A stretch of 64,000 nt of DNA from Xestospongia bergquistia (lineage: Eukaryota > Porifera > Demospongiae > Haplosclerida > Petrosiidae), in the NCBI GenBank assembly GCA_963965975.1, contig OZ014419.1, positions 1,302,001 through 1,366,000 of the forward strand. Reading direction: 5' to 3'. Numbering within the stretch: position 1 is the first letter of the stretch; each line of letters opens with the position of its first letter. Made by a program: the position numbers and the translations under genes. The notes below the pieces were generated by a model. The model saw nothing but the letters and a program-made list of their open reading frames with translations, did no database searches and was not told the DNA's origin. Shown in pieces: positions 14,153 to 52,045 of the stretch.

Positions 14153-16312
14153 TTAAACACAATTGTTTTCCTGTATGAAAAGATTTGCATTAAATCTTGT
14201 CACAGCATTGCATGAATTAGCTGCAATTATGTCTTCTTTACACACTAAAAAAAATAAAATGCAGTGAGAGACAAAGATACAAAGACTTATTACATAACTT
14301 ACTAATATAGTCAAGATTGGAAAGTAGTTGTAACTACTACCTACTTATTATAGACTTAGCTTTAAGTAAATGTAGCTATGCTAATTGCCTAATTTTTTAA
14401 ATCTATTAATGCTAAGAGTAATTTTTTGTACAAACATGTCAGGCTCATATTGATTGTGTTGTTTAATCATTCTTCCTGCATATATATATAGTTTGCTTCC
14501 TATAAGATGATCTTACTTTCTTCTAATGAGCTTCCTTCTTGAAGCCCTGCTTGTTCATTGGAAGGAAGAGCCCTTGCTTGTTCATTGAATGGACTGGTCT
14601 CTGATTGCTCACCAGAAAAAAGAGAACCACTACTTTGAAAGTCTAAATACAAAAACAAAAGATTTTACTTTAGGAATCAGTCAGTCCATACTATACCTCT
14701 GTCAGAGATTTGTATTCAGTTTCACGAAATGCTTTTGTCATTAATTGTGTTAGGAAGTGACCAATTAATTCATGCTGATGGTGTGATGGACGATACTATA
14801 ATATTTTATTAATAATTTTGGTCTCTGTAGTTTCTTACTATGTGTCATACCTGAGGCTCAATTCCTCCATCATCAATATAAACTGCCAAACCATTTCTAA
14901 CCTTTAGCCGTCCTGAATTTGAGGTAATATAAACAATAAAATTATATTTTTAAAAATTATCCTAAGATTGTTTGATGATGTTAAGAAGTTACTACAAGAT
15001 ACCATATTATTTCCCCAATTGTATAATTATTTAGAAATAAGTATACAGTTTATAAAGCATGTCAATATAGTCAATCATGTGATGCTGTACAATTTAGAGC
15101 TTGTTTGTATACGTACATGATGTCATATATACAAACAAGCTCTGAATTGTATGAAGAGATTCAATCTAAATCTTTTCATACACAAAAACAAGTGTTTACC
15201 AAGCAAACAATAATTGTACTAATATAAAAACAGTTCTAACTGCACAGTAAACAACTGTGATATATACTACAGTAGGATACTATATTATGAATTGAACAAT
15301 GTTTATAGCATGAATAGTTTTTATAACAATTAGAAAGACATTGATTAACTTACCTAGTCCATAAAATGTGCGTTGACTATTACCACAATAGTAATATAGT
15401 CCATCTTCAAAGTGAAACACCACTAGAACATAAACTTTGTCAAAAAAGAAACTGGAACCAGAAAATTCAAGTCTTTTGTTCTTGTACGTGAAAGATGCAG
15501 AACGGGGGATATTATAAATTCGTATTGTTCCAAAAAGGTCAAAATCACGAAAATTATTAGTCTAAAATGAATGAATCCATGTGTGGTATAATTAAGATGC
15601 CTAAATTGTTAGCTTGCAAAATAATTACTGGTTTCTCTCTCTTTTCTTAAACTTGATGGAGGGTCAAAACATCCAATGGCATTTTGAATATCAGACTTAA
15701 TGCATTCAACCCAAAGATAAAAGCCACTGCTTTCACACTGTCTTCCTGAAAAAAAGGTGGCTAAGAAAGGGATACTTGAACCCCCTGGCCGAAGTCCAGA
15801 ATTTGTTGACAAATCTGCAAAGTTAACAGATCCAAAGTCAACTTGACCACAAGAAGTCAGAAAAAGATTTGATGATTGTTTCTGGATTCCCAGTTGGTCC
15901 AGACAAGCACTGGCTATGAAATGAAGTAAGTAAAACATTACTGCCCATCTGCATGGTATATAACTATCACTTACAGTTACCAACAGGATCCTCGATGTTG
16001 TGACTTGTTAATTTGTAATAAATGAAGTATCCATCTTCAGGACACTGTACATGATAGGCACAATACAGTCTTCCATCGTAACAACTAAATGGTTGATCTG
16101 AGTATACATATCTTGTACACTAGAACTACTTACTTTGATGAGTAAAAGGAAGGGGTTGCAAGTCTAAAAGCTATTCCATCTTTATTTGCCGTTGAATGAA
16201 TTGTTTCGTCAACTAGTGGTTGTCCCTTTTTGGCTGAGCATTTCCTAGGAATCTTTGTCCTCTTATTGATAGCTAATTTCTTGCATTGTACCATACTATA
16301 AAATAACTTAGG

Positions 16313-16348
<36 letters not shown>

Positions 16349-16609
16349 TAGTACACACACGAATACAGACTATATAGCTATAGTCTTACTTTGGTACTTG
16401 CAAGACAGCATTGTTGATAGAATCCATTGCTGAGGTACACGGTAAATCATACACTGATAACTCAAGTTCATCTTGACTGCCACACCCTGGCTTACAGGCA
16501 CCCCAACAAGAGATTACGAGACAAAATAAGAACAATCCTATGGAAACATTCCTGTCTTTAGCCGCTTCTCATTGTTCTCTTAAAGAGACCGCAGCGCATT
16601 TGCGAGCCT
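14153..16609 (-). CDS. Secreted CUB-like protein with polybasic cleavage site, copy A
   Basis: The first of two tandem paralogues. The predicted order is: signal peptide and Cys-rich N-terminus (GACKPGCG), a CUB-like domain (Cys, FCAYxVQCP, CLDQLGI, F.SGRQCESSGFYLWV), a polybasic RKER site at 15647-15636 just after the domain, then a second module ending in AANSCNAV and a C-terminal Cys (stop at 14155-14153). It matches copy B exon by exon. The start is uncertain: the signal-peptide frame lacks an in-frame ATG in its own exon (16537 downwards), and ATG at 16609 joined by a roughly 60 bp intron with a weak donor restores it. Function unknown; an extracellular or innate-type role is only a guess. 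Confidence 0.75.
15089..15150. repeat. Hairpin with 23-nt arms in an intron of CUB-like copy A
   Basis: Arms 15089-15111 and 15128-15150 pair at 22 of 23 positions around a 16-nt loop. It resembles a small precursor hairpin or a palindromic transposon relic. It lies between the exons of copy A near 14.9 and 15.4 kb. Confidence 0.75.
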
Positions 16610-16669
16610 TTATGCATGACAATTTTTACTAGATTACCTTAACTAAAATTTATAAATTATGTATTATAA

Positions 16670-18416
16670 TTAACAATTGTTTTCCCTTATGAAAAGCCTT
16701 GCAGTGAACTTTGTCACAGCATTACAGGAATTAGCTGCAATTATTGCTTGATGACACACTGAAAATATATAGAAAGTTCAAGCTGTGTCAAATAATTATT
16801 ATGATGTACTTACATTCTTGTAATGAACTTTGTTGACCTATTACTTGCTCTTGAAATCTAGAGGGATGAAATTGTGTTCCTAATAAATTTACAAAAGCAC
16901 TAGTAATTATTCAGTAGTAAAACAATTCATTATACCATTAGCTCTGTCAGAAATAGAATATTCAGTTCCATTGTATTTATAAATCATTAAGTGTGTTAGA
17001 AGTTCGCCAATGAGACGATCTTGATCACGTGTTGGTCGAAACTGTATACAAAGTATAGATTCCTATCTAAACTATAGACATAGTTGATATATACCTGAGG
17101 TTCAATGCCTCCATCATCAATATAAAGGGCTAACCCATTTCTAACTCTCATCCTTCCTGAATATTTACATGAGATGATGAACAGTTGCAAAAATACATTT
17201 TCAATGACTTACCTAGTCCAGTAAATGTACGTTGACTATTACCACAATAAGAAAAGAGCCCCTCTTCAAAGTGGAATACAATTAGAATGAAAACCTTGTC
17301 AAAAAAGAAATTTGCACCAGAAAATTTAATCCTATTGTTATTGTATATAAAAGACATAGAACGAGCAATGTTGTAAATTCGTGACATCCTGGAGTGATCT
17401 AACATTGGAAAGTTGTCACTCTATAATAATTAAAACAAACAATCAGATTATTATAATTAAAACAAACAATAAGGTTATTGTTATTGAATTAATTAACATA
17501 CAAAGTGATCATTGATTTCTCTTCTTCTTCTATCCTCAGATGAGTCTAAACATCCAGAAATATTTTGAATGTTAGATTTAATACAGTTGACCCAAAGATA
17601 GAAACCATCACTCTCACATCGTCTTCCTGAAAAAAAGGTGGTCAAGAAACGGATACTAGGATCTCCAGGTCGAAGTCCAGAATTTGTTGATAAATCCTCA
17701 AAGTTAAGAGATACAGAATTAACTTGACCACAAGAAGTAAGAAAATCATTAGATGATTGCTTTTGGATTCCCAATTGATCCAGACAACCTCTAACTATAG
17801 TGTAATACATCTACAACACATTACAATGTGATTTATCACATACCAGTGCGATCCTCAATATTATGACTTGTTAATCTGTAGTAAATGAAGTGACCTGCTT
17901 CAGGACACTGTACATTATAAGCACAGAACAATCTTCCATCATAACAACTAAAGATATTATAAATAGTATGATCAACACGTTATGTTACTTACTTATCTGA
18001 ATAGAACAAAGGACTTGCCAATCTGAAAGCTGTTCCTTCAGCAATTGTAGTTGACAGAATTAATTGGTTATCTGAAGTAATTGGCTTCCTAGCAGAACAT
18101 CTCCTGGGTATATTTTTTTTTTTATTAATGGCTAGTTTCTTGCATTGTGTAATGCTAGAACAGATTAAAATATAGATTAAGTAATATGTGTGTGTGTAAG
18201 AGTGTGTGTATATGAATTAATCATTTAAATATTACTAAACATAGCTACTCACTTTGGTTTTTGCAATACAAAATTGCTAATTGACTCCATTGCTTCAAGA
18301 CATGGTAAGTCATCCACTGGTGTTTCTCCAACATCTTGAGTACCACATCCAGGCTTACAGGCACTCCAACAAGATGGGATTACAAGACCAAACAAAAACA
18401 AAATCAAAACACTCAT
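16670..18416 (-). CDS. Secreted CUB-like protein with polybasic cleavage site, copy B
   Basis: Starts at ATG 18416 with a clear signal peptide (MSVLILFLFGLVIPSCWS) and ACKPGCG. It then has QCKKLAI and RRCSARK, a CUB-like domain (FCAYNVQCPEAGHFIYY, CLDQLGIQ, LTTFFSGRRCESDGFYLWV), an RRRRE polybasic site near 17532-17521, a beta-rich second module (VFILIVFHFEEGLFSYC; ALYIDDGGIEPQ) and the C-terminal NSCNAVTKF ... NNC before stop 16672-16670. The ORF's earlier Met at 18488 gives no better signal peptide. About nine short exons are evident. It is very close to copy A in tandem, so a recent local duplication is likely. Confidence 0.82.
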
Positions 18417-19036: not shown

Positions 19037-20535
19037 ATGGCTAACTTCTTACTCCTCATACATTTTGTATTGATAGCTTGCATCCATGGCACAAGCAGCT
19101 GTGGTAGTAAGTCCAGTGGTCCATTGGACAATCCTGTTGCCAGGATGTATGGCAACAGTACTTATCCTTGGGCAGATCAAATGGTTAATTGGAGCTGTGT
19201 TTATAATGTCAAAGATTATGGAGGTTCCTTTGAAGCTGCTCAAAAAGCTGTCATGAGGAACAAAGGAGGTGGTGTGGTGTTTTTTCCTGCAGGAACTTAC
19301 AAATTTACTAGTAACATTAATATCGAGAGCAATGTAGTTATCAGAGGTGAACCTTCCGATGGTAGGGCAAAAAAGGGAACCAATCCAGGCTCGCTGTCAC
19401 TTAAAACCATATTCCAATGCACATTTGGAGAGCATCTTGGTATATTTAATAATGATCCTAAGGCAATGAACATAGGAATTGTCAATGTAGAGTTGAATGG
19501 ATGTGCAGTTATGTTTTGGCCAGGTTTGAAGACAGTAAGCCATTATAACATGAAGTCATACTGGTTTGAAGCCACTGATATAATTGGTATGGGTTGGAAT
19601 AAACTAGTTCTTAGTAACGAAATCCATGATGTAACATTTCAACATCCAGATCCTGATTCCAAAAGTGGCAATATATGGCCATGGGCATTTAGTACTGCGA
19701 TAGCTTCTTACAGTGATAACAATACACTAGTTGCCAATAATCTCATTTCAAAATCCACTACATCAAAGCAAGTGGACATTGAATTAGATGGAAGTAAACT
19801 CTCCGTTCAATACCCAGTTGATAATCGTTATGGAATCGATGTTAATCAAATACTATTAGGTGGGGTTATTGGAAAATACAGTGGAAATCAATGTCCTTCA
19901 GGACCTGGTAAGCTCGTGCCATCTTGTGCACCATGGTACTTTAGACATAGGTTGGTAATTCGTGATAATTATGTCTATATGAATGGTCGTGTTGGTATAA
20001 GTTGGAGTGGTGGTGGAGATGGAAAAACAGTTGGTTCTGGCACTCTTCTGTACAACAATCATGTAGAAGTAGCATCTGGGACCACTTGTTGGTCGGTGGA
20101 TGGTACCCATAAAACAAAAGGGTCTTCAACAAATGAGAACCGCGGTTATAATCAACAGGGATACTCTAGCAATTTGACTATGAATACAGGTCACATATAC
20201 AGACAAAAGGCTTCAGATTCCGGTTACTTGACAGTTGATGGTGAAGGCATACTTCATCAAGCATCGAATGGAAATGATGGTTTCAGAAATCTCTGGTACA
20301 AGAATGATCTTTCTGGGGGTAGTTCAGGCTACATTGCATACTATAACCTGTTCAATGTGGAATATAATCAACTAATAGTGAGTACACTGTTCTGTTTGAA
20401 ATTTATCTTTGTTGCCATTTCTAGGAAAACACTGCTGCTAAAGGAGAATTTATTGGTGCTGTTACAGATGCTGAACATCACAATGTCAAGAATAATATGT
20501 GTCATGATAACCATCCAAAGTGTACAGGAATGTAA
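19037..20535 (+). CDS. Secreted right-handed beta-helix protein (pectate-lyase-3-like)
   Basis: Two exons, 19037-20377 and 20425-20535, give 483 residues ending in CHDNHPKCTGM. Reading through the intron instead gives a false C-terminus. A signal peptide (MANFLLLIHFVLIACIHG) is followed by the typical opening of the pectate_lyase_3 family: VKDYGG-SFEAAQKAV, GGGVVFFPAGTYKFTSNI, VIRGE. Repeating strands and Asn turns follow (LVIRDNYVYMNGRVGISW, LLYNNHVEV). Such enzymes cleave or bind acidic polysaccharides; the substrate here is unknown and no catalytic residues could be assigned. A bacterial origin is possible, but the gene has a eukaryotic intron and host-like composition. Confidence 0.8.
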
Positions 20536-20800
20536 TTAATCAGCAAATTTATATATGCTGTTGTATTATAACTCCACTTGCTACAACTAGTGTCAATTAT
20601 ATGAAGTGTTTTGTTATGCTGTTTCCAAGCAACAAATAATATTCATGAATGCTGGACATTTATTATTTGCAATTATAACAATAAATAATGCTTCAAGTGA
20701 AATACTTTGGAGTGCAGTAAATAATATTATATTGTGGACAAAAATTCATGTTTGTAGAAGTGGATGGAAAAATGTATAATACTATAATACTAGAAAACCA

Positions 20801-23810: not shown

Positions 23811-24283
23811 TGGACAACTGTATGTATGCTATGATGTGGATAAATACAATCATTGATATCTAATTCAATACATTGTGTGTGTAGAATGTGTCATTTTCCT
23901 GAATTATTATTATAAAAAGATGTTAGCAGAGTATGCATTCATTTGATATAAATATGAACTGAAAAAATCTATTATTATCATCTCAATACATCTGCTGAAT
24001 ATAGCAGTACATTTTAGATAAATAAAACAATTGTCACTGCAGAGTAGAGAAACATGCTGTGAACACTGTCCTGGAGACACTCCTATGTGTAACTCAGAGC
24101 TCAGCTGGCTTAGTGCGGCGACTCCGGCGAGAATCGGTAGCGAGCCCTCCCCTTGCGGAAAAGGGAGTGGCTACCTGTCTTATTCCTTATTCGCCACGTG
24201 ATATTTTACTCGCACTCACATTGGGGCGTTCAGTTGGCATTTATCGTATTGAGGTCTACCGTTACTTACTATTTCTTTAAAAA
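23811..24283. other. Intergenic, with a GC-rich patch upstream of FEM1-like gene 1
   Basis: About 470 bp. The stretch 24095-24180 is markedly GC-richer than its surroundings and probably belongs to the promoter or 5' UTR of the next gene. No RNA gene could be supported. Confidence 0.5.
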
Positions 24284-26362
24284 ATGGATGGGTTTATGAG
24301 AGGTTTTAGAAGTCATGGCGCTCTGAGGACACCATCAAAAAAGAAGCTAACTCAACGCCAACTGGAAGATCTTGTCAGCAGGACCGTGGAATTCCCTTTT
24401 TCTATACTTGTGGCAGAGAAAGGAGGAAAATGGAATAGGTTTGTAGAACAAGGTTTTGATACGGTTATGTTGGAAGTTTTCAAGAGGGGATTAATGGACA
24501 TTTTGAAATATATTTGTGAAAAGCTTCCTACACATGTTGAAGTGAATAAAACATATCATTACTGTCTCAAAGACGAACCCTTTGACCCCATGATGATAAG
24601 CCTCATCCGATATTTAGGTGCTGATGATTCCAGTAGTATGCCCAATGAATTTGTATACTGCATGACAACTGGAACTGGTGTTCAGGTTTATGGTGACAAT
24701 CCATTGCATATCGCTGCCAGATGTGAGCAACTTGAACTCATTGAGTTTCTTACCAAGCGCAATGCTGATATTCACAGTCTCAATTGCTGTGGTCGAACGC
24801 CACTGTTGGCAGGTGTCTTACACAAATCTGTAATTGAGTTTTTTGTTAAAGCAGGTGCTAATATTAATATCCAAGACAACCGAGGTTTTACTGCTCTCAT
24901 GTTGGCTGTTATAGAGAAGAACGTAGACAACGTGAAAGCCTTGATGGACTTTGGAGCAGACCCTACCCTCGCTGACAGACATGGATATACTGCTCTGCAT
25001 CATGCCTTGAATAAAGATTCAAAGGAGTGCTTTGAAACACTCCTTAGTTATAGCAATGTCTCTCTTACTTGTAATTCCTTTGGTCAGGTTTTATATGCTG
25101 ATAAGCACCTTTTTGCAGCTTTGCCGCCTGAAAAGACCAGTGATATCCTTTTATTTCTAGCTAATTCTTTGAGCCTTCCCTCTAATATTGTCCTTTCAGC
25201 TACAGCTTTAATGGAAGTTAAAGACATTGTTAAAAAAACTAGAGATCCTGTAAATGTGCACGATATAGAATTCTTGGTTCAACTACGAGAAGACTTTAAA
25301 GCCCAACATGATGTGCTTCCATCTGTGAGTTGCTATGGAAATCGTAGAGAAGTGAACAGCAAAGAAGAATTAGACACTCTTTTAGCATCATTGACGCCTG
25401 ACAAAAGGGAAAAGGAGTTAAAGTATCAAGTACTACTTATGGCAGAGAGGCTTGGAGGACAGGGAAGTTATTGGGTATGTAGAAAGATTATTTTAACGGC
25501 TGAGCATTTCATGAGGGACGAAGGATACATTGATGAATGTTTTAAACTTTTGCTGCGAGTTTCTGAAATGCTTTTAAATAGAGCAAAAGCTGGCATTTTG
25601 TTTACTTACGAAATTGGAAGTTGTTTTGAGAGTATTAGTAGCAATGTGATGAACTTGGATCCTGTGAACTCAATTCCTGTTGAATTACTTTACTCTGTGA
25701 TGTCCACAACTGTAGAGGCCGTCATACTTCAGCTAAATTGCATTCAAAGTTGTCATGGACATTCTGAAGAAGACAACAAAAGTTTGGCGATCTCTCCAAT
25801 CATGAATGTAGTCACACCTGCCATGGCCCTCCTAACACGCTTTCTTCACATGTGTACAACTTTGTCTCATAAACCAGAGTATGCCCGTTTTGAAGAAATA
25901 GCTCAGACCATTTGCCAACGTTGTCCATTACTCAATTTTTCAACTTATACTCCGCCCACTCTTCTTCATAATTCCTTGTTTAATTATGGTTCAGAAGAAG
26001 ATTACATCAGAACCATATTAAAATGGGGTATCCGTCGATTTGTCAACGTACGAAGTCTAATGGGTAATACCCCACTTCATGTGGCAGTTATTCAGAAGGA
26101 GACAACTGCTGAGACTATCAACAGTCTTTTGAATCATGGAGCACACATTGATATCTCTAACTGTGATAAGATGTCACCACTTGAGCTGTCTTATGATGAG
26201 ACACAGACAAAAGCTCTTAAAAAATGGTACCCCCTGCGTCTTTCCTGTCTAGCTGCTAGCACAATTGTTAGACGCAGAGTTCAGTATTTGTCACTACCAC
26301 TTCATATGCAGGAGTTTATCAAATTGCATGTGGCTCCTAAACATTCTATTTCTGTATTGTAA
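24284..26362 (+). CDS. FEM1-like ankyrin protein 1 (CUL2 substrate receptor family), intronless
   Basis: A single exon encodes 692 residues. Ankyrin repeats are clear at about residues 145-270 (NPLHIAARCEQLELIEFL, GRTPLLAGV, GFTALMLAVIEKN, ADPTLADRHGYTALHHAL). A FEM1-specific middle follows (LPSVSCYGNRREV, LLMAERLGGQGSYW, aligned with FEM1 LPPIHAYGNR ... ERILG), then a further ankyrin pair (GNTPLHVAVIQKE) and the C-terminal cullin-box-like tail (LRLSCLAASTIVRRR ... LHMQEFIKLH, compare FEM1 LKCLAARA ... LEEFVGFH). FEM1 proteins present C-terminal degrons to CUL2 ligases. The N-terminal 140 residues are lineage-specific. It converges on FEM1-like gene 2. Confidence 0.88.
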   Translation: MDGFMRGFRSHGALRTPSKKKLTQRQLEDLVSRTVEFPFSILVAEKGGKWNRFVEQGFDTVMLEVFKRGLMDILKYICEKLPTHVEVNKTYHYCLKDEPFDPMMISLIRYLGADDSSSMPNEFVYCMTTGTGVQVYGDNPLHIAARCEQLELIEFLTKRNADIHSLNCCGRTPLLAGVLHKSVIEFFVKAGANINIQDNRGFTALMLAVIEKNVDNVKALMDFGADPTLADRHGYTALHHALNKDSKECFETLLSYSNVSLTCNSFGQVLYADKHLFAALPPEKTSDILLFLANSLSLPSNIVLSATALMEVKDIVKKTRDPVNVHDIEFLVQLREDFKAQHDVLPSVSCYGNRREVNSKEELDTLLASLTPDKREKELKYQVLLMAERLGGQGSYWVCRKIILTAEHFMRDEGYIDECFKLLLRVSEMLLNRAKAGILFTYEIGSCFESISSNVMNLDPVNSIPVELLYSVMSTTVEAVILQLNCIQSCHGHSEEDNKSLAISPIMNVVTPAMALLTRFLHMCTTLSHKPEYARFEEIAQTICQRCPLLNFSTYTPPTLLHNSLFNYGSEEDYIRTILKWGIRRFVNVRSLMGNTPLHVAVIQKETTAETINSLLNHGAHIDISNCDKMSPLELSYDETQTKALKKWYPLRLSCLAASTIVRRRVQYLSLPLHMQEFIKLHVAPKHSISVL

Positions 26363-26541: not shown

Positions 26542-29475
26542 TCATCTACTTTTTATAATACCTAAATGTTTACAATATTGTGTGACATGGACCTTTGGAT
26601 CATGAAGACCAATGAAATGTTTGACATGACTAGGAAGATCTAATATTTCATAACAGAGATGATATTGCACAATACTAGTGGCACATCGACAATACAAGGA
26701 CAAAGGATTCCGATAATCGTTGCATATATTTTGACAAGGTTTCTGTCCTTTATGATCAACAACATCGGGATGTGGTCCTAACAGTATCAACGCTGGTAAC
26801 AGATGTGAAGGAACAGAATGTATTGGATATCGTCCCATAGAAGGTACATTTAAAATGTGATCACCACATACATTAACGCAATCTTGCAAATGTTCAGGTT
26901 TACAATCTGGAAGAGAGTAGACCATCTCATAAAACAATGTTGTAGGCATGCCTTTGGAAAGATAAACAAAGTCTAACTCTTTGTATAATAGTTTAAAAAT
27001 TGGGAAGATCCATTCATAATGTCCTTTAGATGATATACCTAGCAAGTACTCCATCCAAATTTTGGCAATACTATCCTCATTAGGACAATATGTAGGATGA
27101 TGAATATGAGAATAACTGGTGTTTTTACAGTAGACTACAACAGCATAGGTGAGCTCACTGTGAATGTCAAGCCAATCTTGGTTTAATTCAAATTTAAATA
27201 CTGAGTATAAAGATATTGCTTTCTTTATAGCATCCACAATCAATGTTTTGATTTCGAGAAAAGGGCCACAGATCTCTGCAAAGCGATGAAGAAGCTCTAC
27301 ATGGAGTTTGTATAATTTGAGACAATTCTCCTTGCTTTCTGGCGACTCCAAAGAAAAAGTTGTTGTTGAATAATGGCTTGCTGCCATTATGTCTAAAATA
27401 TCAGACTGTATATATAATGATTTGTAGCTACCATAACCACAAAGTCGGTCACTTATCAAAAGACACTGAAAATTTATTTCAATTGTAAACTTAGATTCAA
27501 TTTCAATATCTGACAGGCGAATTAATTTATCAATGTCATTGGCAGTTTGAACTTCATGACGGTTGCCATATGCTTCTAACAGAAGAGGATATTCAAATTT
27601 CACTTGGTTCTCTTCTTTGTACTGGATAGCTTTCTGTAATAGTTCTACAAGGGAACCATGATAACTTTTCATCTTAGCCACTACATACAAGAACTTGATG
27701 GATGCTTTCTGTACCAGTGATAAGTGAGGATTATGAAAAAGAAGATTGAAATCTTCATTTTTAAAATCATAAAAAAACAATGGTCGTCCAGCACACGACA
27801 AAGTTCCCATACGACTATCAGGCAAGGGAGTATTAGCAAGTAGTAAATCCATTTCTTGTTTTCGATATGTTGGCAGCAAGTAATGGATGCATGTACGACC
27901 ACATTTATCCATAACAGTAGGATCAGCACCAGCTTTAAGTAGACATTCAACAATCCCTTTAGCACGAGGCTCTTTGACTGAAATAATGAGGGGTGTCATG
28001 CCATATTGTGTTTGATGATTGACATTAGATCTAGCTGCTATTAAATACTCAACAATAGGGAGATTTACAATGCCACGCATGAGAGCTGTACGACCACAAC
28101 AATCGACCACATCAACTTTTGCTCCAAGTTCAACTATATACTTTACTATCTCCAGATGATGATGTGCTGCAGCTAAATGAAGGATGGTATTGCCAAATGG
28201 TTTTGTATGAGCATTTGAGATGATCCACTCTGTGTCTGGTTTGCAATGAACAGGAACAATATACTCATACGTGTAGACAAATACTTTGTTTATGTCAAAA
28301 AATTGAGATAATCTTGTTGTAAAGTATTTCACCACATCAAGTGATCCTCTTTTGCAGGCTTCAATTAGAATTAAGTATAGATTTGAGTCAAAAAGGTCTT
28401 GAGTTAAATAGTTGTATTGATGCTCTAACTTGGCAATTATTTCTTTAGCATATACACCAACATGGAGTATATCATTGTTGTTAAACTCTGTGGGATGGAT
28501 TCGAGTTTTAGTTGTCTTTTTAATCTGACTCAATGTTCTTCCTGAAATATCGACGGGAACCTTTTTTTCCTTCTTGTCAGCATCCTTCAAGAGAGTGTGA
28601 CCTTTCAAAGATTCCTGATTACTCTTCACACCACCATCATACAGATCATCACTAAGATCTTTATCATCCTCATGTATTGGATCTTCAACTTTCATACTGT
28701 GGAAATTTTTTTTCCCTCTCTTTGAATGACTCTGTTTGATCCGATCTCTAAAAAATTGATGCTGAGACACAGGGGAAACAATATCTGGGTCATCTAATTC
28801 CACTGGTTTTTTCTCACGACTGTACATGTTATCATTTTCAATTTCAATATTACAAACTTTGGCAGACGATGACTCTTCATCTCTAGCTTTTCTCATTCGT
28901 GCCTTACACTCAATACGATCAGACTCAGTTACTAGTTCCGTAACATGTGAGACATTTAGAGGAAATGGTACTCTTGTTAATTTCATTCCTGTTGTGTGTG
29001 GAAACAAATTTCTTTTGTGACGATTCTCCTTGTTAAAAAGACAAGCAGATCTATGTTTCCTAGGTTGTTCATTACTGCTCCCAAGGTTAAAGCCACGCCC
29101 ATCTAGGCAAAATAAGGTATCATTGTCTTCCACTTGTATCAGAAGCTTGTCCACGTGACCCTGAGTGGTTTCATCTTTGGAGGATGGAGTGTCTTCTAAA
29201 GACAATGATCCCAGTTCAGGCAAAATTCCTTGTGAAGATTTCAATTTTTGTCTCTTGAAAGAAGTTTTCTTTGGTTTGTCTTTACTGGCTCCAAGACTGA
29301 AGCCCCGCCCATCTAGCTGAAAGGAGCCATGATCTTGTACATGTAATAAAGACTCATCAATTTGCACTGTCAATTCTTGGTGAGGTGTGTCTTTTAAAGA
29401 CAGGCTTTCCAGGTCAGGCAAGGACGTCGTGGCGGAGTATGGGTCACTAGAAAATTCCTCTTTCTTACTGGCCAT
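26542..29475 (-). CDS. FEM1-like ankyrin protein 2 with long N-terminal extension, intronless
   Basis: ATG at 29475 (an upstream TTG-led reading is not a start) gives 977 residues in one exon. Residues about 1-360 are disordered and contain a duplicated block (about 19-70 and 85-141): LESLSLKDTP / LGSLSLEDTP ... LDGRGFSLGAS / LDGRGFNLGSS. Ankyrin repeats follow (NTILHLAAAHHHLEIVKYI, GRTALMRGI, GMTPLIISVKEP, ADPTVMDKCGRTCIHYLL), then the FEM1 middle (LLLEAYGNRHEV, LLISDRLCGYGSYK) and the tail (YCRCATSIVQYH ... LPSHVKHFIGLH). It shares its C-terminal architecture with gene 1. The absence of introns in both copies suggests a retroposed founder or intron loss. Confidence 0.87.
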   Translation of the reverse strand: MASKKEEFSSDPYSATTSLPDLESLSLKDTPHQELTVQIDESLLHVQDHGSFQLDGRGFSLGASKDKPKKTSFKRQKLKSSQGILPELGSLSLEDTPSSKDETTQGHVDKLLIQVEDNDTLFCLDGRGFNLGSSNEQPRKHRSACLFNKENRHKRNLFPHTTGMKLTRVPFPLNVSHVTELVTESDRIECKARMRKARDEESSSAKVCNIEIENDNMYSREKKPVELDDPDIVSPVSQHQFFRDRIKQSHSKRGKKNFHSMKVEDPIHEDDKDLSDDLYDGGVKSNQESLKGHTLLKDADKKEKKVPVDISGRTLSQIKKTTKTRIHPTEFNNNDILHVGVYAKEIIAKLEHQYNYLTQDLFDSNLYLILIEACKRGSLDVVKYFTTRLSQFFDINKVFVYTYEYIVPVHCKPDTEWIISNAHTKPFGNTILHLAAAHHHLEIVKYIVELGAKVDVVDCCGRTALMRGIVNLPIVEYLIAARSNVNHQTQYGMTPLIISVKEPRAKGIVECLLKAGADPTVMDKCGRTCIHYLLPTYRKQEMDLLLANTPLPDSRMGTLSCAGRPLFFYDFKNEDFNLLFHNPHLSLVQKASIKFLYVVAKMKSYHGSLVELLQKAIQYKEENQVKFEYPLLLEAYGNRHEVQTANDIDKLIRLSDIEIESKFTIEINFQCLLISDRLCGYGSYKSLYIQSDILDIMAASHYSTTTFSLESPESKENCLKLYKLHVELLHRFAEICGPFLEIKTLIVDAIKKAISLYSVFKFELNQDWLDIHSELTYAVVVYCKNTSYSHIHHPTYCPNEDSIAKIWMEYLLGISSKGHYEWIFPIFKLLYKELDFVYLSKGMPTTLFYEMVYSLPDCKPEHLQDCVNVCGDHILNVPSMGRYPIHSVPSHLLPALILLGPHPDVVDHKGQKPCQNICNDYRNPLSLYCRCATSIVQYHLCYEILDLPSHVKHFIGLHDPKVHVTQYCKHLGIIKSR

Positions 29476-29670
29476 GATTGGAAGAGGCAAAATTTAACCC
29501 ACAACACACATCCACGATAACAAGATTCATAGTTTGCTAATTTATTCTGAGAGACAAAATGCATTCATTTTAACTGAACCTGAAATTCTTATAAATGAAC
29601 GAAAAGTGTATTAAAAATATAACATTATAACAAGATTGATTTTTGATAAAAATGATTCACATATCATTTG

Positions 29671-39322: not shown

Positions 39323-50102
<10,780 letters not shown>

Positions 50103-50354: not shown

Positions 50355-52045
50355 TTAACACTCTTGATGACGATAATATGCATTTTGGAAGAACTCACCC
50401 ACAGATTTTACAATGGCATTGCAAGACTGAGCACTCTTGTCAGCTAACTGAAGCACTAGAAACAATACAATCAAATTATTGCAGACTTTGAAGACAAAAT
50501 ACATTCACAATGAAGATATATTCTTAATAATACATACATTGTTCCTTTGCACAACGTTTTGCTGATCTACTATGTTTTTCGCTTCTTTGAAACGTTGGTA
50601 AAGCTGATATTGAGTTAGTTCTTGATCCTGTAGTTACATCATTATGATGTAATGTACTATGACATATGATGAGTTATCACTTACTGTCATCTGAAATATA
50701 ATATTGATTTCCTTTAGAAAAGAAACTCACAGAGGCTGACAAAAGCCTATCAACAACTTCAGTTTCAGTTTCTGTCAATCGATACTACATTTCCAATTGA
50801 AAATGATATGTAATTATATTCAAAGAACTGACTTCATGTGGAACTCCAAAAACGTAGTAAAAAGCAGACAGGCCATAAATTTGTAATTTACCTACAATCA
50901 ACTAATACTGTCACTGCATTTGTATGGGATCAACTCACCTGTTCCATAAAATGGTTGATCAGCAGTGCTCTTGTAGGTCTTTGAAAAATCCCCAGATACC
51001 ACTGTAAGCGATGTAGCTGAGTATTTCTCGTATCCAACTTCATTTCTTTTAATAAACAGTGTATTTTCTCTATAAACAAACGAAGTGCCGAATGGGACTT
51101 TAATTTCATTGAGATATTCTGCTGTCATCTGGAACAAAAATCATTTAATATACATTTCTCATGATAAACTGACTATTGGACTGCCAATTGTAGGACTAAC
51201 ATGGACTTCTCTTCTTTTCCTACTTGAAAGGCAACCAGGACTGAACTGTTTGGATATATCAATGCAAAAAGCCCACAAAAAATATCCGCCAGCACGGCAT
51301 TTCTTGTTGGATCGAAAGTGAACTTGCAATTTTTGTGGTTCATAACCTTGTTTAGTAATGTTAAAGTCAGAATAGGTATTATTCTTAACACCAACACATC
51401 CACATGTTGGAACATCTTGGCCACCCAACGAGTCTCGAGTAAGTGTAAGAAAATCAAGACACTGACCTAATTGATAATATTTGCTAGTGGAGATATATAT
51501 GCAGTATCACTTACCTGAGTCAGTGGGATTGTCAATTTTATGTGTAGAAAATTGGTAAAACAAGAATTGATTTTTTTCACATTGTATGTCATAAGCACAA
51601 AACAACTTGTCATCATAACAGCTAAAACGCATAGCGACAATCATTCGATAATAATATTATCATATACAACTTACTGTTGGTTGTAATATCCTGGGTGAAA
51701 TATTCTGTAAGCTACATATCCATTACCTTGAGTGTGCAATAAAGGTTGATCATCAGCAGGATTGTATGCCTTTTTAAGTCTGCATGTAATAGGAAACTTG
51801 TTTCTAACTTTAATTCGTTGACAGTGACAGACACTACATATGAGGAGCTAAAATAACAGAAAATAATACATTCGTTTTTTTTACTTTTTTCCTCTTATTC
51901 CATTGATAACACCATTTGTTCTATCACAAATGAGTTGAGGTGGAATATCATTCAAAGGTGGAGGTCCACTACAAGGACACTGACTTGAATTCACAACCAC
52001 ATCAATGGTTGAAAAGAGCAAGAATAACAAGATGAATCTCATCAT
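50355..52045 (-). CDS. Secreted CUB-like protein with polybasic cleavage site, copy C
   Basis: Exons 52045-51885, 51833-51675, 51621-51515, 51466-51174, 51128-50939, 50891-50833, 50784-50685, 50627-50538, 50455-50355; 419 residues, in phase. A distant paralogue of the two tandem genes at 14-18 kb, with the same order: signal peptide (MMRFILLFLLFSTIDVVV), Cys-rich start (CPCSGPPP), CHCQRIKVRNK, CUB-like domain (LFCAYDIQCEKNQFLFYQF, CLDFLTLTRD, FRSNKKCRAGGYFLWAFCI), polybasic RKRR at 51221-51210, second module (FGTSFVYRENTLFIKR, LQIYGLSAFYYVFG) and a C-terminal SCNAIV ... Cys-stop. The ATG pair at 52045/52042 is the start. The cleavage site and exon phases are conserved despite low identity. 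Confidence 0.85.

Follow-up and report, generated by a model that had tools for sequence, protein, structure and literature searches.

In vertebrates, CUB domains attached to cut linkers control growth factors. Secreted two-chain proteins processed by convertases include complement C3 and the insulin receptor ectodomain, and ADGRG6 is a CUB protein with a furin site. A comparable case is that of PDGF-C and PDGF-D, which are described in PMC3339540 as remaining latent until the CUB domain is cleaved off. The proteins analyzed here, from the sponge Xestospongia bergquistia, combine a CUB domain, a basic linker and a second module.

Two intact genes of this kind, both on the minus strand, lie in the window, i.e. 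the whole stretch of 64,000 nucleotides that was analyzed. Gene B (16670..18416) consists of 9 exons, coding for 417 aa in a single open frame to the stop: exons 1-5 at 18416-18253, 18154-17993, 17947-17844, 17794-17502 and 17420-17213, and exons 6-9 at 17156-17095, 17041-16936, 16879-16814 and 16758-16670. As modelled, all 8 introns are of the GT-AG type, with phases 2,2,1,0,1,0,1,1. Gene C (50355..52045) has 9 exons and 410 aa, its exon 4 donor being placed to within a few codons; exons 1-5 are located at 52045-51885, 51833-51675, 51621-51515, 51466-51201 and 51128-50939, exons 6-9 at 50891-50833, 50784-50685, 50627-50538 and 50455-50355, and the introns are again GT-AG as modelled. The two proteins are merely 27-29% identical, and intron phases coincide at all 8 shared introns. 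An earlier reading of this DNA from its letters alone (the sequence-only reading) had proposed both spliced structures, the low identity and the kept phases, all of which were confirmed.

Both proteins show the same succession of parts: a signal peptide (by eye), a Cys-rich start, a CUB domain, a basic linker, a second beta-rich module, a helix and a C-terminal Cys. In gene B, the CUB region (residues 73-214), supported by a CxDxL...CG pair and by the paralogue profile, spans 17583..18102, introns included; an RRRR followed by E, a candidate convertase site by its sequence motif, is found at 17520..17531; the second module, beta-rich and conserved among paralogues, is encoded by exons 5-7 (16936..17420); the last exon (16670..16758) carries the SCNA stretch, with Cys400, and the final Cys. 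The corresponding candidate site in gene C is an RKRR, also followed by E, at 51210..51221. The signal-like start, the Cys-rich start, the CUB domain (by profiles), the second module and the SCNA(V/I) stretch, as listed in the sequence-only reading, are thus all present in B and C.

Copy A (14153..16556, minus strand) is an apparently disrupted relative of B, adjoining it. Its exons 1-4 are located at 16556-16390, 16295-16134, 16084-15981 and 15913-15618 (the last one was modelled one codon shorter, ending at 15621), and exons 5-7 at 15561-15354, 14912-14851 and 14795-14697, followed by pieces down to 14153. An RKER motif, with E next, is found at 15636..15647, and identity to B is 65%, with a dN/dS of 0.26 over 357 codons. 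An in-frame ATG is absent from exon 1, exon 4 would require a GC donor, and the copy departs from the reading frame of B within exon 7; on these three counts A looks disrupted, being either a decaying copy or the product of local assembly errors. Its SCNA stretch was found only in a separate ORF. The earlier listing of A alongside B holds for the RKER site and for the resemblance, and looks doubtful for the integrity of the gene.

Other open frames were observed in the window. A frame of 500 aa adjoining B (19037-20539, plus strand) begins in a signal-like way and matches a pectate-lyase-like domain (PF12708 at an E of 5.3e-7); it is possibly of bacterial origin. A long open frame with ankyrin repeats at 24281-26362 (plus strand) faces a second one at 26542-29493 (minus strand), whose layout is similar by eye.

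The whole genome (146,460,797 bases in 21 contigs) was searched by using B, C, E, F, G and N as queries, all partial except E, and at least 14 loci, named A to N, were identified. Locus D, on contig C11, is 80% identical to C. The gene downstream of C (window 49425-50102, plus strand) is also duplicated beside D (L019 5210-6043, minus strand), in the same convergent arrangement, which makes D part of a larger duplicate comprising the two genes. Locus E, on contig C9 at 3.01 Mb, codes for 423 residues; it lacks one shared intron, keeps the remaining 7 phases and has an additional small exon in its tail. In E, KKR and GKR flank a tiny exon before the C-terminal helix (L020 3595-3882, minus strand), an arrangement resembling a peptide-hormone precursor and not seen in the models of the other copies. 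Contig C9 also contains, at 1.503-1.523 Mb, a tandem array of cathepsin-L-like exons, with the active-site Cys kept where read (L072).

Loci F, G, H, I, J, K, L, M and N form a tandem cluster on contig C2, between 10.880 and 10.913 Mb. The family had been described as a tandem one, which is correct for A and B, and the larger tandem is found on this other contig. In cluster members I, J, K and N an extra exon with cysteines precedes the last one (in I: L056 7972-8285, minus strand); in I and N part of it is collagen-like, with short Gly-X-Y runs such as the GLPGKPGPG of I, and the C-termini of I, K and N read TG(I/T)PG(I/M)KG. Twelve of the 14 loci were modelled and aligned: H and M, being incomplete, were omitted, while F and G were aligned without their first exon(s). 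In the resulting tree, A-E are split from the rest by one branch with a support of 100/100, to be read with a long-branch warning.

On profile and motif evidence, the first half of these proteins is a CUB domain. When a profile of eight paralogues was compared with all PDB sequences, the 11 matches obtained up to an E of 10 were all CUB proteins, as judged by protein names and general knowledge; cubilin was the best one (4.3e-7), and TSG-6 (0.0074), ADGRG6 (0.054), C1s, PCPE-1 and enteropeptidase were also among them. The Pfam CUB family (PF00431) was listed for 3 of the 8 members tested, with a best E of 9.2e-6. When the profile was aligned by hhalign with that of six CUB domains found elsewhere in this genome, 89 columns were in register at an E of 6.6e-4, the probability being only 27%. 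The Cys pair of the C..DxL...CG motif (alignment columns 184 and 203) is present in all 12 members, in canonical order in B, and a GF or GY is found near the end of the domain in aligned members; the classical C-x-W start is retained only by E. An Asp follows two residues past the Cys in 12 of 12 members, and three residues past it in TSG-6. The SD position, a calcium position in TSG-6, reads SN, SG or SS in all 12, its Asp being replaced by N, G or S. In the AlphaFold model, obtained from a query containing introns and nine alignment rows, pLDDT in the CUB part is mostly below 50, so that the fold is not confirmed by it. Profile, Cys pair and GF/GY end are shared with known CUB domains such as those of cubilin, TSG-6, C1s and PCPE-1, whereas, relative to the classical four-Cys CUB, extra Cys columns are found here, 148 and 256 in 12 of 12 members and 135 and 245 in 11 of 12.

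No relative of the second module was found in the profile and Pfam comparisons that were run, though it is conserved among paralogues. AF2 models of exon 5 from C and from F show beta strands in series. Comparison of this module with the CUB profile aligned only 16 columns at an E of 0.22 and gave no sign of a second CUB domain, the alignments being small, and a Pfam match to the PDGF/VEGF cystine-knot domain was absent in the 8 members searched. After the linker, the models contain between 0 and 4 Cys (one in E, none in G). The last exon, with Cys400, appears helical by eye, and the proteins finish in a short tail, where no membrane span was seen.

The linker, from the last CUB Cys to the second module, is 32 to 64 residues long. 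A motif picked after viewing the copies, [KR]R[DE], so that counts and shuffle statistics flatter it, occurs 10 times within 540 linker residues, against none in the remaining 4,072 residues modelled for the 12 members. It is present in 9 of 12 linkers, A having KER followed by E instead; in shuffled linkers, an average of 1.09 members carried it, and 9 were attained in none of 10,000 shuffles. Since tandem copies are not independent, a second test took a single representative of each clade (B, C, E, F, G and N): 4 of the 6 carry the motif, a figure equalled by 3 of 10,000 shuffles. The extra exon of J, excluded from its model, contains one KRE, which places the motif outside the linker as well. 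In 10 of 12 members the site is located 15-22 residues beyond the last CUB Cys, and no basic site was found in the linkers of F and G, out of the 12 scanned. The more demanding R-X-[KR]-R was found in 6 of 12 linkers and nowhere outside them; at the shared place it occurs in B, C and D only, in E, I and N it is located elsewhere within the linker, and at the shared place A has only R-X-X-R, while J, K and L have only the dibasic TKR or KKR.

As far as sequence can tell, the basic motif is placed, not universal. The sequence-only reading had claimed a conserved polybasic site and a furin-type cut, and had named homologues without a basic site as evidence against its interpretation. The site does exceed shuffled expectation and the anatomy fits a cut proprotein, but F and G are such homologues, and most sites are dibasic rather than of the full furin type.

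When A is compared with B, and C with D, the linker has diverged faster than both modules, and so have the tail and the N-terminal part. The non-synonymous to synonymous ratios of A/B are 0.24 for the CUB domain, 0.27 for the second module, 0.49 for the linker, 0.42 for the N-terminal part and 0.70 for the tail; those of C/D, calculated on few substitutions, are 0.41, 0.41, 1.21, 1.22 and 0.81, respectively. These regional ratios point to two modules under constraint, with a freer linker between them that retains the motif. Within the C2 cluster (CUB 0.58, second module 0.86, linker 0.83) the contrast between linker and second module is missing.

Candidates for such an enzyme are encoded in this genome, where 22 P-domain matches (convertase type) were found. 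In another demosponge, Amphimedon, furin, PC7 and four further convertases are described in PMC6850559. On contig C10, between 5.17 and 5.31 Mb, 16 of the 22 P-domain (PF01483) matches form a tandem array, an unusual crowding.

In thirteen alignment columns, three or more of A-E have Cys, and seven of these columns are Cys in all 12 members; cysteines that the cluster has of its own, without a counterpart in A-E, are not listed in this count. Only two of the 13 columns separate the two branches: 272 and 531, corresponding to Cys225 and Cys400 of B. Column 272 is Cys in 5 of 5 A-E members and in none of the seven cluster members (F, G, I, J, K, L and N), which have G or D there; column 531 is Cys in the 4 of A-E having a letter (B, C, D and E) and in none of the same seven, which have K or N, with the proviso that in F an NFCN is alignable with NSCN in place of TSKN, and that the last exon of G was joined without a checked splice. 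Cys225 lies 7 residues upstream of the basic site of B, so that the two cysteines are found on opposite sides of it. As A-E and the cluster are separated by a single branch with 100/100 support, the pattern counts as one paired change and not as several. A paired loss is visible elsewhere in the family: every member but E has Cys at columns 135 and 245, and E has lost both, a likely pair. After the signal peptide (placed by eye), E has 9 Cys in its N-half and 1 in its C-half, which makes it the cleanest case; B, with 17, an odd number, is not clean. The Cys225/Cys400 pattern suggests, for A-E, a disulfide that would bridge the cut. Judged by Cys225 and Cys400, such a tether cannot be general in the family; the earlier proposal of disulfide-linked halves gains support for one branch, where the two columns change together, and not for the seven cluster members, where both cysteines are missing as aligned, and of which I, J, K and N have other cysteines in the extra exon.

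The reading that we prefer, at slightly less than even confidence, is that these are secreted two-module proproteins with a convertase-cut linker, the halves being disulfide-tied in A-E and untied in the C2 branch. Behind the signal peptide and a Cys-rich leader, the precursor would carry the CUB domain, the linker with its basic site and the second beta module, and would finish with a helix and a tail. Cutting would most likely be done by a convertase of the furin or PC7 type, between [KR]R and the following E or D, in the secretory pathway. In the A-E branch, Cys225 would pair with Cys400, resulting in a mature, disulfide-tied two-chain molecule; in the C2 branch, lacking both cysteines, the halves would not be tied by them. 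The CUB half may represent the binding part, and the second module would be presented, or set free where the halves are untied.

The basic stretch could also be a charged linker that is never cut, within a single-chain CUB protein of adhesion or matrix. Basic linkers are frequent between extracellular domains; F and G manage without a basic site, the shared place is only TKR or KKR in J, K and L, and the looser R-X-X-R is barely commoner inside linkers (8) than outside (7). We regard this explanation as possible but somewhat doubtful, given that the site stands at the same place in 10 of 12 members and that, among modelled residues, the motif is restricted to linkers while the remaining linker drifts. 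If cutting does occur, the CUB half might keep the protein latent or bind it to the matrix, and its removal would liberate the C-terminal module as a ligand, by analogy with PDGF-C and PDGF-D: the order of the parts is identical (CUB domain, a linker that is protease-sensitive in PDGF-C and -D, C-terminal module), and the untied C2 branch would permit release. This is unlikely for the family at hand, whose C-terminal half has no cystine knot, has one Cys in E and none in the G model, and in A-E appears tied to the first half.

The matched cysteines could, on the other hand, each bond with its twin in a second molecule. Nothing observed conflicts with such a homodimer, and single extra cysteines of extracellular proteins often form one; two separate positions changing jointly are more simply explained by an internal pair, and we hold the homodimer to be very improbable. 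Within the preferred reading of cut proproteins, a more ambitious version, itself tentative and rather unlikely as a whole, describes a two-chain family with an unclassified beta module, in which one branch has the tether and makes a tied protein, while its sister branch, without it, makes a factor that can be released.

A named family with the whole layout was not found in Pfam, searched with the whole protein, or in the literature searched; the copies described here are those of this genome. The sequence-only reading had likewise known of no such family; this stands for the whole protein, its CUB half being a member of a domain family already described. The CUB domain and the processing logic are known, and their combination with the second module and with the tether pattern did not turn up in Pfam or in the papers searched. 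A multi-copy CUB family with a candidate cut linker, an unplaced second module and a tether naturally present or absent would be a simple system for asking what joining the halves does, and could bear on whether CUB latency predates the PDGF case.

As in complement C3 and the insulin receptor, a basic site is located between modules here, with cysteines on both sides that could keep the chains together, the domains being unrelated. ADGRG6 has both a CUB domain and a basic site, as found here, but is a membrane receptor with other domains. PDGF-C and PDGF-D, as described in PMC3339540, share with this family an N-terminal CUB domain, a linker and a C-terminal module, the candidate cutting here being read from sequence. 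Unlike PDGF-C and PDGF-D, these sponge proteins have no PDGF/VEGF cystine knot and carry instead a different beta module, an added C-terminal helix and a possible tether between the two halves.
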